A DNA stretch of 36,035 nucleotides, from contig CAINEC010000143.1 of assembly GCA_903847585.1 (NCBI GenBank), positions 1 through 36,035 of the forward strand. Reading direction: 5' to 3'. A program made the position numbers and the translations under genes. Shown here in pieces: positions 17,597-28,046 of this stretch. This DNA is from an uncultured Bacteroidota bacterium. Lineage in GTDB: Bacteria > Bacteroidota > Bacteroidia > AKYH767-A > OLB10. How positions within the stretch are numbered: the first letter of the stretch is position 1; every line of letters starts with the position of its first letter. The notes under the pieces are model-generated. The model worked only from the letters and a program-made list of their open reading frames with translations, did not search any database and had not been told where the DNA came from.

Positions 17597-18430
17597 ATGG
17601 ACATTACCAGTTTTATTCAGCAATCTTTACAAGAAGATATCGGTCAAGGAGATTTTACTACGCTTTCAACTATCAACAAAGATCAGCAAGGAAAAGCAAA
17701 GCTGCTTGTTAAAGAAAATGGCGTATTAGCGGGCATCGAACTAGCTAAACAAATTTTCCAAAAAGTAGATGACTCATTGGTCTTTCACCAACACCTGCAT
17801 GATGGCGATAAAATAAAAATTGGGGATATCGCTTTTATTGTTGAAGGTAAAATTCAAAGTATATTGATTTCAGAACGACTTGTTTTGAATTGCATGCAAC
17901 GCATGAGTGGCATTGCTACCGTAACGAATGAACTTGCAAGTGCACTTAGTCCTTATGAAATTAAAATCTTAGATACTCGCAAAACAACACCTCTCAACCG
18001 ACATATAGAAAAATGGGCAGTACGAATTGGTGGTGGAGCGAATCATCGATTTGGTTTATATGATATGATCCTTATTAAAGATAATCATGTGGATAGTGCC
18101 GGGGGAATTAAGAATGCATTGGTAAAAGCAAAACAATTTGTTGAGGAAAATAATTTATCAATTCCAATAGAAATTGAAACAAGAAATTTAAGTGAAATTG
18201 AAGAGGCACTTTCTACAGGGATTCCGAATAGAATCATGCTCGATAATTTTAAACCCGATTTAATAAAAGAAGCTATTGCTCTAATTAATTCAAGATGCGA
18301 AATTGAAGTGTCAGGAGGAATTACAAAAGAGAATTTAATGGACTATGCAATTAAAGGAATAGACTTTATTTCAATGGGTGCATTAACACATTCAGTTAAG
18401 AGTTTGGACTTAAGTTTAAAAATTACCTAA
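17597..18430 (+). CDS. nadC: Nicotinate-nucleotide pyrophosphorylase (carboxylating), NadC
   Basis: 277 residues, the normal length. It converts quinolinate and PRPP to nicotinate mononucleotide, CO2 and PPi in de novo NAD synthesis, in the cytoplasm. Motifs are EDIGQGDFTT near the N-terminus, ERLVLNCMQRMSGIAT, the substrate-binding DTRKTTP (about 126-132), GGGANHRFGLYDMILIKDNH, IEIETRN and the late EVSGGI and DFISMGALTHS. All the basic residues expected at the phosphoribosyl site appear to be present. Its stop overlaps the ATG of the following YihY-family gene by one base, so the two are coupled. The sequence TTACTTTG at 17572-17579, one base off the -7 consensus, lies just upstream of the start. 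Confidence 0.96.
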   Translation: MDITSFIQQSLQEDIGQGDFTTLSTINKDQQGKAKLLVKENGVLAGIELAKQIFQKVDDSLVFHQHLHDGDKIKIGDIAFIVEGKIQSILISERLVLNCMQRMSGIATVTNELASALSPYEIKILDTRKTTPLNRHIEKWAVRIGGGANHRFGLYDMILIKDNHVDSAGGIKNALVKAKQFVEENNLSIPIEIETRNLSEIEEALSTGIPNRIMLDNFKPDLIKEAIALINSRCEIEVSGGITKENLMDYAIKGIDFISMGALTHSVKSLDLSLKIT

Positions 18431-19377
18431 TGCTAAAAAACCTTAAGAATAAACTTTTGAATTCATTGCCTACGCAGCTTTTAATTAGCTTTTTAAAAAG
18501 GTTAAAGCTACCTGGCTTCGAAGGAATTCCTTTTTATTCTGTTGCAACTTTCTTTATTCAACGAATTAAAGAAAGTGAATTACAAACCAGAGCAAGATCA
18601 CTAGCCTTTAGTTTTTTGTTGGCGCTATTCCCTTCGGTAATTTTTTTGTTTACCCTTATCCCATATATACCGATTGATAACTTTCAGGATAAATTACTTT
18701 CACTAATAAGTACTTTATTACCTGGAAACACCTATGAAGCAGCTTATAATACGATTGAAGATATTGTAAGACATCAGCACAGTGGTTTACTTTCATTTGG
18801 TTTCTTCTTCGCACTATTTGTATCAACTGATGGTATCATGGCACTCATGCGATGGTTTAATAGAAGCTACCATGGAAAAGATAATCGACCTGTATGGAAA
18901 CAACGATTTTTATCCATTGGAATAACTTTACTAATTGCCACACTAGTTATTGTTGCAATCCTTCTAATTATTATTAGCGAATTAATTTACTACTACATTA
19001 CAAGCAAGGAGTTATTATTAGAAAACATTTTCCATCTATTATTACTTCAAGTTGGAAAGTGGGTCATATTGGTCACATTATGTTTTACTGCTATTTCAAT
19101 TCTTTATTTTTTCGGTCCATCAAAAAGAGAAAAAATGAAGTTTGTGACAGCAGGATCTTCGCTAGCAACCTTTCTATTGATTGCAACCTCATTAGGATTT
19201 AATTATTTTGTTACCAACTTTGGGAGATACAATAAGGTGTATGGTTCAATCGGAACCTTAATCATCATATTGATTTGGCTTTACATCAACTCTCTTGTGA
19301 TGCTGATAGGATATGAGCTAAATGTGGCTATTAGAAAAGCAAAAGATAAAGGCACTACTCCTCTTCCCATTCAGTAA
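18430..19377 (+). CDS. YihY/BrkB family inner-membrane protein
   Basis: 315 residues with about six membrane spans. ELQTRARSLAFSFLLALFPSVIFLFTLIPY near residues 50-79 and the closing YGSIGTLIIILIWLYINSLVMLIGYELN are the signature of the YihY/BrkB family (Virul_fac_BrkB). Members were once mislabelled RNase BN; their actual role is unsettled, with transport or lipid-related functions proposed. The gene is joined to nadC by a TAATG overlap. Its last 23 bases overlap, tail to tail, the end of the giant PKD-repeat gene on the other strand. The terminal residues after the last family motif (KAKDKGTTPLPIQ) are not conserved, so this end could have been altered along with that neighbour. Confidence 0.9.
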   Translation: MLKNLKNKLLNSLPTQLLISFLKRLKLPGFEGIPFYSVATFFIQRIKESELQTRARSLAFSFLLALFPSVIFLFTLIPYIPIDNFQDKLLSLISTLLPGNTYEAAYNTIEDIVRHQHSGLLSFGFFFALFVSTDGIMALMRWFNRSYHGKDNRPVWKQRFLSIGITLLIATLVIVAILLIIISELIYYYITSKELLLENIFHLLLLQVGKWVILVTLCFTAISILYFFGPSKREKMKFVTAGSSLATFLLIATSLGFNYFVTNFGRYNKVYGSIGTLIIILIWLYINSLVMLIGYELNVAIRKAKDKGTTPLPIQ

Positions 19378-22300
19378 TAACGCCTGTAACAACTTTTATT
19401 TGTTCCCAGTCACCATTATTATTTAATTTCTCAATTACATATTTTTCTACACCTGAATCCCAGTCAGTGTATTTTGTCCATTTAAGGATATTAGAAATTT
19501 CGCTTTCGTAAACATCAAGTAATATAGAAGATCCTATGCGCCCTTGCATAGTTGCCATGTTACAAGTATTTACCACTTCCACTTTGTAATAATAATTTTG
19601 TGCATCTACAGTAACATTGTTATCATCATAAGACAATGCTTGTGAAGGCAATGTTGCAACCAAGTTATAATTAACCTGGTCGGTAGATCTATAAATATTA
19701 TAACTAGTGATTAAATCCGAACGATAAGATGGCGGAGTCCATTCCGTAAGTGTATAACTATCATTAACAACCGTTGTACGAGTAATATCAACAAACTGCT
19801 GATCTAAATCACTTGTTGTAATAGTCATAGTAGTATCACTCCATGAATCAAATCGTGTGTCGTTACAAATTGATACTGCTTTAATTTGATAAGCATATTC
19901 TCCAGCGCAATACGCCGTTGTATCTAAGAAATTATTAATTGACTTTGATACAGATGTTAGATAGACAAATGACGAGTTAGCATTATCTTTTCTATAAATT
20001 TCATAGCGTGAGAAATCACAACCAGCATACTGATTCCAGCTAACATCATTTTTCATAAATCCACCAACAACACTAACCTCAATTGTCTTATGAGCAATTA
20101 AATTTTCCAACGACTGATATCCTCCACAATAGTCATATGCCTGCACTTTATAAGTATATGCATTATGTAATGTATTCAATCCTGCATCCACATAATCAAT
20201 AAATGCATTTGCTTGTTGTGGTACTGAAGCGATAGAATCATAATCACCAGAAACCAAATTCAATCGATAGATGATGTATTTAGTAATATCAGGCTCATTA
20301 CTAACCGGCCATGTAATTTTAACACTTGAATTATCCAATACCGTTACATAACTAATCGATGTTGGTAATGGAGGTGTTTGATCATATACGACAATCGGAC
20401 TAGACATGTACACGGTATCTTTACATCCACCTTCGTTTGTCACGATTAAATAAGGAGTAAAGTTGCCGCTATTTACATATGTATAGTATGGATTATTTTG
20501 AGTTGAGGAATCTTGATTACCAAAATTCCAAACGTAAGTAGCGTTAGATAAATTTGAAGAAGTATTATTAAATTGTACTGGCAATGGATTACATCCAATT
20601 TGAACGTTCGATGTAAATGATGCCGATGGAGATTGATAAACAGTAATAGTATCTGGATATACAAGTGAATCGGCGCAACCGCCATTATTATAGGCGATAA
20701 GTTTGATTACATAATTACCAGCATTTTGATAGGTATAAAATGGATGCGAACCAGTAACAATAGACCCATCGCCCATATCCCAAACTAAACTATCAGCAAT
20801 TGTATTATAGTCAGAAATTGAAATTGTAAAAGGAGAACATCCTGAAGTACCAGATAATGTATAATCTAAAACAGGACTCTCTCCAATTATGATCGGATTT
20901 GGATAAGAGAATATTGTTGAACACCCAGTAGAATCAAACGCATAAAGCGATGCAGTAAAATTCCCTTGATTGGTATAACTATGCGTTGCATTAGCAGTTG
21001 AATCTGTTGATCCATCACCAAAACTCCAATAGTAATTAATTGCTCCAGAAGTTAAATTAGTAAAAGTAATTATCGCAGGTGCGCAACCGTTAGTACTGCT
21101 TACACTGAAATTCGGAACTGCTCCTCGCACATTAATCATTTCTGATTTGATTATAGTATCTGTGCAACCAAAAATATTCTCTGTTATTAATCGAATAGTA
21201 TACTTACCCGGACTAGTATATACGTGATTTGGATTTTGATTTGAAGATGTACTGCCATCACCAAAATCCCATTCCCATCCAATTACATTAGATGACAAAT
21301 CGGTAAACTCTACTAATAAAGGTAAACAACCATTAGTCGTATCGGCTGTAAAATTAGCAGTTGTCTGTCCAACTACAATTAATGAATCCATATGAACCGT
21401 ACTGAAACATCCCTCCGCAGCTTCTACCGTTAATTCAACATCGTAACTACCATTAGTTGAATAAGTATGCGTAGGATTTGGATCTGTTGATGAAGTTCCA
21501 TCGCCAAAATTCCACAACCAAGAAATCGGATTTAAAGAAGAATCTGCGAATGTGACTGTAACTGGATTACAATTTCCACTTGACGTAAAACCAAACTCTG
21601 CATTCGTCAATTCAATATTATTTTTTGTCGAATCTTTCTGACATCCATTTACATCTTTAATGATTAATGTAATTGGATTAACGGGCTTCGTTGTAAATAC
21701 ATGGACAGGATTCTGAACGGTATCTGTTGCTCCATCACCAAAGTCCCAATACCATTTAGCAGCATCAACACTTAAATCCTGGAATGTTGCTGTAACTGGC
21801 AAACAGACTGTTGATTGCGAATAAGTAAAATTAGCAGCTGGTCGACTAACATAAATTGCATGAGGAATAACCATTGTATCAGAACAGATATTCTCGTATG
21901 CAATTAATGTAATATCATAATAACCTGGGGTGCTGTATGATTTAGTAGCAACAACGTTGGATGAATTAGATCCATCACCAAACTTCCATAACCAAGATGT
22001 ATAGTTTGAACTATTATTATTTAAATAAGCGACAACGGTTGTACAATTTGTTGTTGTAGTAAAATTAAAATCAGCAATTGGTTTATAAACTTCAATCTGA
22101 TAGGCTAAATTAAATGTATCAACGCATCCATTTATATCAGTCACAATTAGCATTACCTGATAACTACCTGCATCTTGGTATGCATGAACGGGATGCTTTA
22201 TGGTAGATGAGTTACCATCACCGAAGTTCCATAAATAATTTTGGTAATTCACAGCGCCAGCATTAAACTCAACATCTGTATTCGCGCAAGTACGTCGCAC

Positions 22301-25120
22301 GTTAGAAGTAATTGGCGAAGTAGCACTTACCTGGAATGATTTCGCCACATAAGAATTACACTGATTAGTATCTGTTATATTTAAACTTATCAGATACGAT
22401 GCTGTAGCTAAAGGATAATTATATGTTGCAGATGATGTATTGAATGTGATTCCATTTCCAAAATTCCAATGGTATGAATTAGCTGCTTGAATTGTTGAAG
22501 CTGTTACAATAACACCATTACATAAATTAGTAGTATTAATTGTAAAATCAGTCACCGGCTTTACAACATAATACGGCAACGGATAAAACATGGTATCGTT
22601 TACTCCATTTAACCCTGTAATAATCACACTTGGAATAAAGGCACCACTATCAGTATACGTATGCGAAGGATTAGGATCACTTGATGTATGTCCATCACCA
22701 AAATCCCATAACCAACTTAACCCAGTACTTAAAGGAGAATAAAATTGAACATCAAAAGGAGCGCAATGCACTTCTTTAGGAACAACCACTACTCCACCAC
22801 CACCTAATGAACCTCCATTACTAGATCCATGTCCTAGTGTAGTATTTGGGAAATCCAATGTATATGTACAACTATCATTACCCACAGTTAGAGTTAATGA
22901 AAATGGACCGTTAGAGGTATATAAATGTGTTGGGTTTTGAAGAGTCGAAGTAGTACCATCACCAAAATCCCATAGCCACCACGTTGCATTACTAGAATTA
23001 GCTTGAAAGGCCACATTAAACGGAGCAACTGTATCTGCACAATTCATTGTAGGATTAGCACCTAAACCTGTAATATGAACACCATTGCTTATTGATACAT
23101 TTGTCGGACATCCATTAGCGGTAGTTGTAGTCAAACTTACATTGAAATAACCTAACCCTGGGAATGTATGCACCGCGTGCTGATCGGTTGAGTGACCACC
23201 ATCACTAAATGACCAATTCCATGCAACCGCATTATGACTAGTATCTGTGAATTGTACAACGTAAGGCGGACAAGGACTAACTGTATAGGTAAATCCTGGA
23301 TCTGATTTATCAATATGGAATGTTTGAAAATTTGAAATAGTTCTTTCGCATCCACCATTTACTCCCCATGTAGTTAAAGTAACCACATACGTTCCTGAAT
23401 CTGTATAAGTATGTTGAGGATTTGAAAGTGTAGAAGTTGTTCCATCACCAAAATCCCATAACCATTGACTAGATGCGCTATTATCAGCAAAATTAGCACT
23501 GAATGGTGCGCATCCTGTTATTGGTGCTGGTGATACATAGTTAACCGTTGGAGCATTAACATTTATTGCCGTTGGATAGACTAATGTGTCTGTACAACCA
23601 GTACCACTTGTAACAATTAATTTTGGCGTATACACACCTGCGTTAGCATAGACATGCGTTGGATGTTGTTGAGTTGATGTTGTTCCATCACCAAAATCCC
23701 AAAACCACGAAGTTGCGGCGTTAGAATGATCAGTGAAGTTTACAGTAAGCGGTGGACAACCCGAAGTAACATCAGGATTAAAAATCGCTTCCGGAGCATA
23801 AACGGTTACATCAAGATTTAAAGGATAACCAAATGAACAACCATTTGCAGAAGTAACCGTAAGTGAAATATGATATAAACCTGCTGTTGTATAAGCATAA
23901 TTTGGTGTGTGTTGAGTAGATGTATTACCATCACCAAAATCCCACAAATAAGTATTGTTATTGCCAGGTGTATTATTTACAAAATTTACATACAATGGAG
24001 CGCAACCAATATAATTACTCACCGAATAATTTGTCTGAGGCTTTGCTAATGATGTGATCGAATTTAATGTAGTCGAATTAATACATCCATTATTATAATT
24101 TACAGTTACTGTTGGATTAAATACTCCAGCATCATGATAAGTATGATAAGTGGCAAAAGTGTTTACGATATTACTTGAATCATCTAAATCCCATTGGTAA
24201 GAGAAATTAGGATTAAACGGAACCATCATTGAAACATATAATGGCTGACAGCCAGTCATTGTACTTGCAGTAATGATTGGCTTAGGATTATACTTAATAT
24301 GAATATAATTCTGTTTTGTTAATGTGGCAGGACAACCGTTCGCTGATACAGCTGTTAACGTTATCGAGAAATATCCTGTATCGTTATAAACGTGATTAGG
24401 GTTTTGAATGCTTGATGTTTGACCATCTCCAAAATCCCACGACCATGAAAGAACATTACTTGCAGAAGCTGTAAACTGAAAGACCTTCGCACTATCGCAG
24501 GTAATTGAGTCATTGACAACAAATGTTAAATTAGGTTTAGGGTTAACTGTTATTAATGCTACTTGCGTTTTTGTATTACTGCATCCATACGTTTTATTGA
24601 AGGCGATCAAAGTAACATTAAAAACTCCTGGAATATTATAAATATGCTGAGGGTTTGTTATTGAACTAGTTGTTCCGTCACCAAAATCCCATAAACAAGA
24701 GTCATAATTTAAAGAGGTATTCTGAAAATCAAAAACCTGACTTGACTGACATCCTGAAGTATTTGAAACAGTGAAGTTGGCTATCGGAGATGCAACAACT
24801 GTTATTGATGTTGAGTAATTATTGGATTGTCCTGCGGCATTAGTAGCTGTTAATGTAACGGTGTACGTACCTGATGCTAAAAACACATTACTTGGGTTTT
24901 GAAGAACTGAGGTATTACCATTGCCAAAACTCCAATTATAACTTACAGCATTTTGTGAGGTATTGGTAAATTGTACATTCAGCGGAGCGCAACCTGTAGA
25001 TACTGAAACGCTGAAGGATGCTACTGGAGATTGAGCCATCAAACTACCACAAATTAGAATAGCCCATCCTAACAGGAAGAGCTTTAATAACACTGATGAT
25101 GTGGCTTTTTGGGTTAGCAT
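19355..25120 (-). CDS. Giant PKD-repeat surface protein, about 19 PKD domains plus FN3-like modules, lacking a sorting domain
   Basis: 1921 residues. A signal peptide (LLKLFLLGWAILICGSLMA, cleavage near residue 30) is followed by about 19 tandem PKD-type beta-sandwich repeats of around 81 residues (roughly residues 31-1578), each with a GC(A/P)P start, a W-D/N-FGDG centre and an H-x-Y turn. Each repeat carries one or two cysteines near its ends, which may form disulfides. Repeats 4, 8, 11 and 18 have degenerate centres. A GSSNGGSLGGGG spacer interrupts repeats 9 and 10. From about residue 1579 there are three FN3-like modules and part of a fourth. The stop falls inside that fourth module (VTGVITEWEEE), and neither the type A nor the gliding-associated type B (CHU_C) sorting domain expected for such T9SS cargo is present. 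It is probably an adhesin-like surface protein, perhaps now unable to be sorted. Confidence 0.9.
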   Translation of the reverse strand: MLTQKATSSVLLKLFLLGWAILICGSLMAQSPVASFSVSVSTGCAPLNVQFTNTSQNAVSYNWSFGNGNTSVLQNPSNVFLASGTYTVTLTATNAAGQSNNYSTSITVVASPIANFTVSNTSGCQSSQVFDFQNTSLNYDSCLWDFGDGTTSSITNPQHIYNIPGVFNVTLIAFNKTYGCSNTKTQVALITVNPKPNLTFVVNDSITCDSAKVFQFTASASNVLSWSWDFGDGQTSSIQNPNHVYNDTGYFSITLTAVSANGCPATLTKQNYIHIKYNPKPIITASTMTGCQPLYVSMMVPFNPNFSYQWDLDDSSNIVNTFATYHTYHDAGVFNPTVTVNYNNGCINSTTLNSITSLAKPQTNYSVSNYIGCAPLYVNFVNNTPGNNNTYLWDFGDGNTSTQHTPNYAYTTAGLYHISLTVTSANGCSFGYPLNLDVTVYAPEAIFNPDVTSGCPPLTVNFTDHSNAATSWFWDFGDGTTSTQQHPTHVYANAGVYTPKLIVTSGTGCTDTLVYPTAINVNAPTVNYVSPAPITGCAPFSANFADNSASSQWLWDFGDGTTSTLSNPQHTYTDSGTYVVTLTTWGVNGGCERTISNFQTFHIDKSDPGFTYTVSPCPPYVVQFTDTSHNAVAWNWSFSDGGHSTDQHAVHTFPGLGYFNVSLTTTTANGCPTNVSISNGVHITGLGANPTMNCADTVAPFNVAFQANSSNATWWLWDFGDGTTSTLQNPTHLYTSNGPFSLTLTVGNDSCTYTLDFPNTTLGHGSSNGGSLGGGGVVVVPKEVHCAPFDVQFYSPLSTGLSWLWDFGDGHTSSDPNPSHTYTDSGAFIPSVIITGLNGVNDTMFYPLPYYVVKPVTDFTINTTNLCNGVIVTASTIQAANSYHWNFGNGITFNTSSATYNYPLATASYLISLNITDTNQCNSYVAKSFQVSATSPITSNVRRTCANTDVEFNAGAVNYQNYLWNFGDGNSSTIKHPVHAYQDAGSYQVMLIVTDINGCVDTFNLAYQIEVYKPIADFNFTTTTNCTTVVAYLNNNSSNYTSWLWKFGDGSNSSNVVATKSYSTPGYYDITLIAYENICSDTMVIPHAIYVSRPAANFTYSQSTVCLPVTATFQDLSVDAAKWYWDFGDGATDTVQNPVHVFTTKPVNPITLIIKDVNGCQKDSTKNNIELTNAEFGFTSSGNCNPVTVTFADSSLNPISWLWNFGDGTSSTDPNPTHTYSTNGSYDVELTVEAAEGCFSTVHMDSLIVVGQTTANFTADTTNGCLPLLVEFTDLSSNVIGWEWDFGDGSTSSNQNPNHVYTSPGKYTIRLITENIFGCTDTIIKSEMINVRGAVPNFSVSSTNGCAPAIITFTNLTSGAINYYWSFGDGSTDSTANATHSYTNQGNFTASLYAFDSTGCSTIFSYPNPIIIGESPVLDYTLSGTSGCSPFTISISDYNTIADSLVWDMGDGSIVTGSHPFYTYQNAGNYVIKLIAYNNGGCADSLVYPDTITVYQSPSASFTSNVQIGCNPLPVQFNNTSSNLSNATYVWNFGNQDSSTQNNPYYTYVNSGNFTPYLIVTNEGGCKDTVYMSSPIVVYDQTPPLPTSISYVTVLDNSSVKITWPVSNEPDITKYIIYRLNLVSGDYDSIASVPQQANAFIDYVDAGLNTLHNAYTYKVQAYDYCGGYQSLENLIAHKTIEVSVVGGFMKNDVSWNQYAGCDFSRYEIYRKDNANSSFVYLTSVSKSINNFLDTTAYCAGEYAYQIKAVSICNDTRFDSWSDTTMTITTSDLDQQFVDITRTTVVNDSYTLTEWTPPSYRSDLITSYNIYRSTDQVNYNLVATLPSQALSYDDNNVTVDAQNYYYKVEVVNTCNMATMQGRIGSSILLDVYESEISNILKWTKYTDWDSGVEKYVIEKLNNNGDWEQIKVVTGVITEWEEE
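20385..25031 (-). repeat. Tandem repeat region encoding the PKD array
   Basis: About 19 diverged coding repeats with a dominant spacing near 243 bp (81 codons). The most conserved DNA is the stretch encoding WDFGDG: the 17-mer CCATCACCAAAATCCCA (plus strand) recurs exactly at 21255, 22692, 22956, 23442, 23685 and 23928, all in the same phase, the last three exactly 243 bp apart. Near-matches occur at most other repeats. Confidence 0.85.
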
Positions 25121-25301: not shown

Positions 25302-28046
25302 ATGCTTTCGGAAGAAGAATGGGTTGAAGTATATGGCGCGCGCGTTCACAACCTTAAAAATGTAGACGTTGTTTTCCCTAGAAACAAGTTAGTTGTAATT
25401 ACTGGATTAAGTGGTAGCGGTAAAAGCTCCTTGGCTTTTGATACTATTTATGCCGAAGGTCAGCGCCGATACATGGAAACTTTTTCAGCCTATGCACGTC
25501 AGTTTTTAGGCAACCTCGAACGGCCAGATGTAGATAAAATCAAAGGACTAAGTCCGGTTATTTCCATTGAACAAAAAACTACTAATACCAATCCCCGATC
25601 AACGGTTGGAACGGTAACTGAAATTTATGATTTCCTTCGATTATTATTTGCCCGTAGCGCGGATGCGTATTCGTATTTGTCGGGAGAGAAAATGATTCGA
25701 ATGACCGATGCTCAGATATTAGATGTCATCTTCAAATCATACGACGGTAAAAACATTTTATTATTGGCTCCAGTAGTAAAAGGCCGCAAAGGACATTACC
25801 GCGAATTGTTTCAGCAAATTATGCAGCTTGGATTTGTGAAAGTTCGAATTGATGGTGAGCTTACCGATCTAAAACGCGGACTTCAAGCCGATCGTTATAA
25901 AACCCATGATATTGAAATTGTCGTTGATCGTATCGTTATCAATGAAGACTCTCGTCAACGCATTACCGATAGTATTAAAATGGCGCTTAAGCATGGTAAA
26001 GGCACCATCATGGTTTTAGATGAGAAGTCGAATAAAGTAAAACATTTAAGTCAGCATTTGATGTGTCCTGTTACAGGCATCTCATACGACGAACCTGCTC
26101 CAAATAGTTTTTCATTCAACTCGCCGTATGGTGCATGTCCTAAATGCAACGGACTAGGAACTGTTCCAGAGATTGATGTAAATATCATCATCCCTGATCG
26201 TAGTAAATCAATTAAACAAGGTGGTATTGCGCCGTTAGGAGAATTTAAAGACAATTGGATCTTTAGTAAAATTACAACCATCGGTAAGCGCTACGGATTT
26301 ACACTCACTACACCAATAAAAGATATTCCCGATGAAGCCTTAAACATCATTTTATATGGCTCCAGTGAAATCTTTAATGTAGAATCTGATTTTGTATCTG
26401 GAAGTATTAACTCAACCGTTTCAAGCTTCGAAGGTATAGCAAGCTTTATTGCATCACATATAGAAAGTGAAGTAGCCTCAGCTAAAATGAAAAACTGGGC
26501 GCAGAGTTTCATGACTCATATTGTATGTAGCGAATGTGATGGTAGTCGTTTGAAGAAAGAATCACTCTTCTTTAAAATCGATCAAAAGCATATCGGTCAG
26601 TTAAGCGCAATGGACCTTTCTGATTTTTATGAATGGTCGCTGACAGTAGAAAAAAGATTAACAAAGCAACAGCTTACCATTGCAAAGGAAATTTTAAAAG
26701 AGATTACCAAACGTGCGAAATTTTTATTGGATGTTGGTCTCGAATATTTAACACTCAACAGAAGTTCAAAGTCCCTTTCAGGAGGAGAATCACAACGTAT
26801 ACGATTAGCAACACAGATCGGCTCACAGCTCGTAGGTGTTATGTATATTTTGGATGAGCCAAGTATTGGATTACATCAACGTGATAATATTCGTTTGATT
26901 GAATCACTTAAAAACTTAAGAGATATTGGCAACTCAGTTATTGTTGTTGAACACGACAGAGAAACAATTATGGCTGCCGATCATGTTATTGATATTGGCT
27001 ATGGAGCCGGTGCGCATGGAGGAAAAATAATTGCCAGTTGCAAACCAGATGCGTTAATTAATTCTGATACATTAACAGCAAATTACCTTTCAGGAAAATT
27101 TCAAATCAAGCCAGGCAAAATCAGAAAAGGCAACGGCAATAAAATAGAGTTATCAGGATGTACAGGAAACAATCTGAAGAATGTAAATGTAGAATTTCCA
27201 CTAGGTAAATTAATTTGCATCACAGGTGTTTCTGGTAGTGGAAAATCAACATTGATTAATGAAACCCTCTACCCTATTTTAAATCAACATTTCAATCGAT
27301 CAAGTCAGAAACCTTTGCCGTATAAAAAAATCAAAGGACTTGAGAACATCGATAAAGTAATCGAGATAGATCAGTCTCCTATTGGAAGAACGCCTCGCTC
27401 TAATCCTGCTACTTATATAGGAGTGTTTAGTGATATTCGAAATTTATTTGCGCAACTGAACGAATCAAAAGTAAGAGGATATCCTCCAGGCTGGTTTTCT
27501 TTTAATGTGAAAGGCGGACGTTGTGAAACCTGTCAGGGTGCAGGTATGCGCGTTATCGAAATGAACTTCCTTCCAGATGTAAATGTTATTTGTGAAAACT
27601 GTAATGGCCATCGTTATAATCGTGAAATTTTAGATGTTCGCTATAGAGGAAAATCGATTAATGATGTACTTAATATGAGTATTGAAACAGCAGTTGACTT
27701 TTTTGAAAACATGCCCTCTATCCGACATAAAATAAAGACGCTTAAAGAAGTTGGATTAGGGTATATCACTCTCGGACAACAAAGCACAACTTTATCAGGA
27801 GGTGAGGCGCAACGTGTGAAACTTGCAACTGAACTTGCTAAAAAAGATACAGGTAATACACTCTATATTCTTGATGAACCTACAACAGGTTTGCATTTCG
27901 AAGATGTTAGAATATTATTGGATGTATTAAATATTTTAGTTGATAAAGGAAATTCAGTGCTTGTGATTGAGCATAATATGGATGTGATTAAAATGTCTGA
28001 TTACATTATTGATATCGGTCCTGAAGGTGGTAGTAAAGGCGGATAA
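25302..28046 (+). CDS. uvrA: UvrABC excinuclease subunit A, C-terminally truncated by an in-frame TAA
   Basis: 914 residues as read. UvrA is the dimeric ABC-type ATPase that finds DNA lesions and loads UvrB in nucleotide excision repair. The first ATPase half has Walker A GLSGSGKS at 35-42 and signature LSGGESQR at 492-499, then Walker B YILDEPSIGLHQ. The second has Walker A GVSGSGKST at 642-650, signature LSGGEAQR at 831-838, YILDEPTTGLH and the H-loop VIEHN. The DNA-binding zinc module is intact (Cys741, 744, 764, 767). The first zinc module reads CPVTG where many UvrA have CPxCG, so one ligand is a threonine. The frame stops at 28044-28046 directly after IDIGPEGGSKGG, but the usual final segment (VIATGPPEEL...) follows in the same frame. 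The full-length product would be 950 residues. Confidence 0.93.
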   Translation: MLSEEEWVEVYGARVHNLKNVDVVFPRNKLVVITGLSGSGKSSLAFDTIYAEGQRRYMETFSAYARQFLGNLERPDVDKIKGLSPVISIEQKTTNTNPRSTVGTVTEIYDFLRLLFARSADAYSYLSGEKMIRMTDAQILDVIFKSYDGKNILLLAPVVKGRKGHYRELFQQIMQLGFVKVRIDGELTDLKRGLQADRYKTHDIEIVVDRIVINEDSRQRITDSIKMALKHGKGTIMVLDEKSNKVKHLSQHLMCPVTGISYDEPAPNSFSFNSPYGACPKCNGLGTVPEIDVNIIIPDRSKSIKQGGIAPLGEFKDNWIFSKITTIGKRYGFTLTTPIKDIPDEALNIILYGSSEIFNVESDFVSGSINSTVSSFEGIASFIASHIESEVASAKMKNWAQSFMTHIVCSECDGSRLKKESLFFKIDQKHIGQLSAMDLSDFYEWSLTVEKRLTKQQLTIAKEILKEITKRAKFLLDVGLEYLTLNRSSKSLSGGESQRIRLATQIGSQLVGVMYILDEPSIGLHQRDNIRLIESLKNLRDIGNSVIVVEHDRETIMAADHVIDIGYGAGAHGGKIIASCKPDALINSDTLTANYLSGKFQIKPGKIRKGNGNKIELSGCTGNNLKNVNVEFPLGKLICITGVSGSGKSTLINETLYPILNQHFNRSSQKPLPYKKIKGLENIDKVIEIDQSPIGRTPRSNPATYIGVFSDIRNLFAQLNESKVRGYPPGWFSFNVKGGRCETCQGAGMRVIEMNFLPDVNVICENCNGHRYNREILDVRYRGKSINDVLNMSIETAVDFFENMPSIRHKIKTLKEVGLGYITLGQQSTTLSGGEAQRVKLATELAKKDTGNTLYILDEPTTGLHFEDVRILLDVLNILVDKGNSVLVIEHNMDVIKMSDYIIDIGPEGGSKGG

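Follow-up and report, generated by a model that had tools for sequence, protein, structure and literature searches.

A giant PKD/FN3 protein of Bacteroidota that ends in half an FN3 domain, and a small sorting-domain protein that may complete it

The window (the whole stretch of 36,035 nucleotides that was analysed, contig C143 of an uncultured Bacteroidota genome) encodes a giant protein of 1921 aa built of PKD and FN3 modules. Its gene converges on a YihY/BrkB-family gene and diverges from uvrA, both regarded as bystanders. The features of the locus are as follows.

18430-19377, plus strand: gene of a YihY/BrkB-family membrane protein, convergent neighbour of the giant
19355-19377, both strands: 23-bp convergent overlap of the 3' ends of the giant and YihY genes
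19355-25120, minus strand: ORF of the giant PKD/FN3 protein, 1921 aa, with signal peptide, PKD array, three full FN3-like modules and a half FN3, without a sorting domain
25031-25120, minus strand: signal-peptide-like segment MLTQKATSSVLLKLFLLGWAILICGSLMAQ at the giant's N-terminus, read by eye
20402-25030, minus strand: PKD array, PKD_4 in 18 stretches of the protein (Pfam)
19526-20401, minus strand: three complete FN3-like modules preceding the half module (alignment, AlphaFold2, Foldseek)
19358-19525, minus strand: half FN3 lacking strands F and G, the proposed docking groove for a carrier
19505-19519, minus strand: half-FN3 strand A (this and the next four strand names are our assignment on the AlphaFold2 model)
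19478-19492, minus strand: half-FN3 strand B
19424-19444, minus strand: half-FN3 strand C
19385-19408, minus strand: half-FN3 strand C'
19361-19372, minus strand: half-FN3 strand E
25302-28046, plus strand: uvrA, divergent neighbour (family searches)

The truncated FN3 module and its neighbour

The giant ends in SILLDVYESEISNILKWTKYTDWDSGVEKYVIEKLNNNGDWEQIKVVTGVITEWEEE directly before its stop codon, after strand E of the fourth FN3 module. AlphaFold2 was given the last 348 aa with a 17-row alignment (the giant and 16 relatives) and placed strands of the last module at residues 295-299, 304-308, 320-326, 332-339 and 344-347 of the modelled piece; these were read as A, B, C, C' and E, with none for F or G. 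The pLDDT was ~79-87 across this module and 66 in one loop block, and the top Foldseek match of the modelled end was the FN3 7-10 tandem of human fibronectin (1fnf). Of the seven strands by which an FN3 domain is recognised (A, B, C, C', E, F, G), the last module of the giant therefore has five, and F and G were assigned to a separate small protein, here called the carrier, through alignment with fused relatives. Pfam and NCBIfam (E <= 0.001) reported neither CHU_C nor any other sorting domain in the giant. The ORF, the domain searches and the AlphaFold2 model agree on what the original prediction had read from the letters, namely that the giant stops inside an FN3 module without a secretion tail.

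The same end recurs in relatives. In the first set of 41 genomes (the window's genome and 40 relatives), it lies at the identical point in 31/31 loci, including a paralogue of 1835 aa in the window's own genome (G000:C24, L021:4204-9711), and the half-FN3 end is thus an old family trait. When 30 of these 31 loci were aligned, the ends fell within two columns. A further search covered 30 loci, and all 27 with the end displayed stop in half an FN3, while a related-loci search with ten closer sequences gave 22 loci, of which L072-L076 are distant only. Over all loci, 67 distinct half tails were gathered, with 16 or 17 residues after the conserved Trp of strand C' in 57 of them.

It had been proposed that a recent deletion joined the 3' ends of the PKD and YihY genes, which would account for both the missing tail and an unusual YihY terminus. 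The giant does stop within a domain, the DNA past its stop codon is the 3' part of the YihY gene on the opposite strand, and the two ORFs share 19355-19377, as had been noted. However, alignment of the giant C-termini with those of relatives found both the same FN3 end and the same overlap, the very observation that the original prediction had named as speaking against its proposal: the identical end is present in all 31 loci, and the giant and YihY genes overlap by 4-26 bp in 11 other genomes (L027-L034, L039, L041, L049). The paralogue ends alike before a different downstream gene, read as a histidine kinase, and other half giants precede kinase and phosphoglycerate mutase genes, or other genes (names by eye). 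The YihY terminus also proved ordinary, since YihY proteins of relatives adjoining a half giant end similarly (e.g., AIRKAKDKGTTPLPIQ, SIRKARKITSLPIQ). In addition, half giants form one branch of the tree described below. Among ORFs of >=70 aa past the stop in the first-set loci (up to four per locus, examined by eye), no FN3/CHU_C continuation was seen. A recent deletion therefore retains practically no probability, being refuted by relatives and by a paralogue with another neighbour that share the end; a deletion, frameshift or misassembly at 19355-19400 was excluded on the same grounds.

Fused relatives and the missing strands

More distant relatives keep the FN3 module whole and fused to CHU_C on one chain, which bears out the expectation of a full FN3 followed by a sorting domain as the usual ending of such proteins. 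They run ~125-160 aa beyond the half-giant end, with a continuation such as 'CYRIRAFE....SLSNEAC' (strands F and G) followed by 'PNAFTPN.DGIN' (CHU_C), and one lies in the window's own genome (G000:C109, L174). Among 40 fetched stretches, 18 end in half an FN3 and 22 continue into F-G and CHU_C. When giants and carriers were aligned as separate fragments to the fused relatives, the giants stopped at strand E and the conserved part of the carriers began at strand F; part of the rows was displayed, and a few residues preceding the F strand were scattered by the aligner. A FastTree phylogeny of the region upstream of the trait separates 66 half giants from 57 fused proteins by one branch (support 92; the program warns of some long branches), so that the split looks like a single old event. 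The carriers need three changes on their tree, with which a single origin of carriers appears compatible.

The carrier of the window's genome is a protein of 145 aa on contig C142 (L285:8851-9288), unlinked to the giant. It comprises a signal peptide, FN3 strands F-G and a CHU_C/TIGR04131 type B sorting domain (66 bits against TIGR04131, cut-off 35; 80.4 against CHU_C, cut-off 27). The original prediction had suggested that the giant may need a separate carrier, and the missing strands together with a sorting domain were indeed found as a separate gene. The carrier alignment (A3) reads as a signal peptide, then 'YRVTAYK......S.SN' (strands F-G), then CHU_C. In 55 distinct carriers the F strand mostly follows the hydrophobic core by 10-20 residues (a few are longer and two were left unmeasured), and so the mature carrier is predicted to begin almost at the F strand. 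The sole structure match of the carrier profile at E <= 0.01 was the C-terminal end of the Aureispira grappling hook protein GhpA (9flp). A scan of viral contigs with the carrier gave one match, to CHU_C only, and PADLOC gave no match.

Further genes recur near half giants. In the window's order, a protein of 172-195 aa that combines a hydrophobic segment with a complete FN3-like domain and has no sorting domain is encoded 13-66 bp upstream of the second half giant. The copy beside the paralogue (L021:9761-10324), whose product has no Pfam or NCBIfam match, was considered as the missing half and rejected, because its family model shows eight strand elements, which suffice for a whole FN3, and it has no sorting domain. 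This protein is possibly a third subunit. To the eye, similar genes follow the giant downstream in L141, L142, L143 and L148. A second protein, of ~485 aa ('KTIKKLS..EYQ.LL.EVSGKKKNKPYMVLE'), recurs in divergent or downstream positions relative to half giants and has no family match above cut-off. The copies are listed below.

Gene of 172-195 aa FN3 protein, first group: L021:9761-10324 (minus strand); L055:2653-3183; L056:1111-1629; L057:2608-3195
Gene of 172-195 aa FN3 protein, second group: L059:2724-3254; L061:1313-1873; L062:2933-3496; L067:2406-2990
Gene of ~485 aa protein: L021:10589-12046; also L055-L057, L059, L061, L062, L067, L136, L138, L140
Gene of ~485 aa protein, less similar copies: L145-L147, L150

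Joint occurrence and gene order

The half giant and the carrier come and go together. In the 41-genome relatives set, carriers scored 160-207 bits in frames of 145-209 aa, one per genome, and other CHU_C proteins reached at most 130 bits; the match in G040 contains one stop codon. Both genes are present in 31 genomes, the giant only in two (G002, 85% complete; G006, 79%), the carrier only in one (G039 of family group f3, 85% complete) and neither in seven, where the 33 genomes with a giant had its end read in 32 cases (all but G014). The corresponding Fisher p of 1.2e-5 is illustrative only, because the genomes are related and not independent.

A class set of 395 genomes, at least 16 of them common to the first set, was searched, with scoring limited in each genome to the top 5 (A1) or top 9 (A3) first-look candidates. 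The carrier was found in 41/395 (148 bits or more, frame of 140-209), and the half giant in the same 41. Its end was read in 40 of these; in the remaining one, G124, stops interrupt the giant, which starts 11 bp past its carrier. In 48 other genomes (18 and 29 from two sets of fetched ends, plus G008) the end of the best relative was read as the fused type, and there is no carrier. A further 64 genomes gave weaker matches, with ends outside the count, and 242 had no giant match at 1e-20. Seven family groups (f1, f5, f9, f10, f25, f37, f62) hold both states, and within them both genes go together save in the incomplete G002 and G006; in f25, the pair is present in G344 and G401, and other listed members of their genus group have neither gene.

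Nine short CHU_C frames below carrier scores (two in G207, and one each in G308, G341, G002, G032, G027, G019 and G001) were examined as missed carriers. Eight proved to be longer fused proteins truncated where their contig stops, and in the ninth (G027, L298) CHU_C is not preceded by an F strand. In G124, a draft genome, the in-frame stops of the half giant beside its carrier (L302, G124:C3:84500-93000) may reflect sequencing error or a pseudogene.

Outside the window's order, giant and carrier lie on the same strand 0-65 bp apart in 16/28 pair genomes, carrier first in 15 and behind the giant in G368; at 11 loci the same-strand gene directly upstream of the giant is a carrier of 146-189 aa. 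In three more pair genomes the two genes share a contig and a strand (G096 and G132, with the giant read in more than one frame, and G045, with ~1.3 kb between the genes). The remaining nine have the genes on separate contigs; six of them (G042, G062, G156, G215, G269, G293) have a giant cut off by the end of its contig, and in three (G113, G146, G369) the giant is intact with another gene upstream. Within the window's order, class-set pairs lie on different contigs even in genomes of few contigs (e.g., G035, ~10). No carrier is present in L055-L076. With two half giants and a single carrier in the window's genome, one carrier may be common to both giants. At L153:2405-2887 (minus strand) a carrier lies downstream of its giant and is followed by an ORF that is PorP/SprF-like by eye, an order that would put cargo, carrier and shuttle in one gene run.

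A proposed two-chain type B substrate

Type B substrates of the type IX secretion system (T9SS), such as SprB and PG1035, are defined by the TIGR04131/CHU_C domain. According to the portions of the literature consulted, they need this C-terminal domain and sequence beyond its conserved part, 150-235 aa in all, as well as PorP/SprF proteins, which also hold substrates on the surface (PMC12618676, PMC9143113). The window's genome encodes SprA (2639 bits), 23 CHU_C domains over cut-off and nine PorP/SprF proteins over cut-off, none of these nine on C142 or C143, and so both the translocon and the shuttles are present. A Sec signal peptide is present in the giant by eye, and the C-terminal CHU_C/TIGR04131 domain is absent from its chain and present in the carrier. 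Judged from its sequence the giant alone is no member of the type B substrates, and giant and carrier together appear to have the features. It is thus probable that the giant is one of the two chains of a T9SS type B substrate, with the last FN3 domain split between two genes.

Binding, reassembly of the FN3 domain and export in trans are steps that we infer, and they may be pictured as follows. Strands A, B, C, C' and E stay with the giant, and the carrier would supply F and G at its mature N-terminus, followed by CHU_C/TIGR04131. Both chains would cross the inner membrane by Sec, and in the periplasm the F-G hairpin of the carrier would complete the open FN3 of the giant by fragment complementation, comparable to donor-strand insertion in pili. 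The complex would then bear one sorting signal, at the position seen in fused relatives. With the carrier as its link, the giant would be exported and anchored by SprA together with a PorP/SprF shuttle. Each genome would use a single carrier for its giant or giants (two giants in the window's genome). A coevolution distance test gave a partial r of 0.20 for half FN3 with F-G, vs 0.11 and 0.13 for control pairings such as those with CHU_C, a weak signal in the expected direction from 49 pairs with no phylogenetic null.

Several known systems come close to this arrangement. Like established type B substrates, the carrier combines a signal peptide with a type B domain over both cut-offs. In the giant's fused relatives that domain belongs to the cargo chain itself, and the genome has SprA and PorP/SprF; unlike in those substrates, cargo and sorting domain are separate chains that would meet at a split FN3. 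In chaperone-usher pili, an immunoglobulin-like domain left open where C-terminal strands are missing is filled by the N-terminus of another protein. The strands missing from the giant would likewise be offered by the carrier N-terminus, as far as sequence anatomy reveals, but here the domain is FN3, two strands (F-G) rather than one would be supplied, and a cargo would be joined to its export signal with no fibre built. Partner-formed composite targeting signals of type VII secretion substrates, as described in part of PMC10730906, similarly draw on more than one chain, although with helical partners and in a different secretion system. Finally, two artificial fragments of an FN3 domain that is cut in a loop can refold into a working domain, as in the laboratory split FN3 and split monobodies of PMC11666773 (citing Dutta et al., 2005); that laboratory cut lies in the CD loop, whereas the present one is natural and lies in the E-F loop. 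What would be new here is the two-chain type B substrate, with its sorting domain set apart from the cargo.

Other relations between the two proteins were weighed. They could be partners of which the small one is exported alone and anchored on PorP/SprF, the giant leaving otherwise or assembling later. The same co-occurrence and domain data would fit, and type B proteins remain bound to PorP-like proteins in the part of PMC9143113 consulted, yet the giant has no sorting signal of its own and the F-G hairpin would presumably have no partner strands unless the small protein met the giant before export, which makes this arrangement rather unlikely. Alternatively, the chains might be covalently joined after docking, by an isopeptide-like bond or ligation, so that one polypeptide is restored. 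Split immunoglobulin-like domains with isopeptide bonds exist (SpyTag type), and a Lys stands at the end of the F strand in 7/12 carriers. However, no intein-like sequence was seen at the junction by eye, we know of no isopeptide-like bond in FN3 domains, and the Cys pair found in F and G of 32/49 fused relatives has no counterpart in the F-G segment of carriers (Cys in 0/55), which argues against a disulfide there; covalent joining is considered very unlikely. The chances are slimmer still that the half FN3 is functionally complete alone, for example in a strand-swapped pair of giants, with an indirect link to the small protein. AlphaFold2 gave the half module alone fair confidence, but the small protein holds exactly the strands absent from the giant, and both genes come and go together.

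The sorting domain of the carrier might be export-competent only once F-G has completed the FN3 of a cargo, giving an assembly-licensed signal in trans, a conjecture for which the balance is even. If true, one small general carrier would deliver several giants and could not leave empty. On the plain two-chain reading, the extra sequence needed by type B export could be the reassembled FN3. A reason could thus be offered for the finding that the conserved domain alone falls short of efficient type B export, as reported in the consulted part of PMC12618676. T9SS substrates in the published work consulted, in part, carry their own C-terminal signal. In open-licence PubMed Central papers, a body of literature that holds no preprints, we found no T9SS substrate described as having its sorting domain on another chain. 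A signal provided in trans through a split domain would mean that sorting-domain screens miss surface proteins in many Bacteroidota, and it would offer a natural split FN3 as a non-covalent docking tag.
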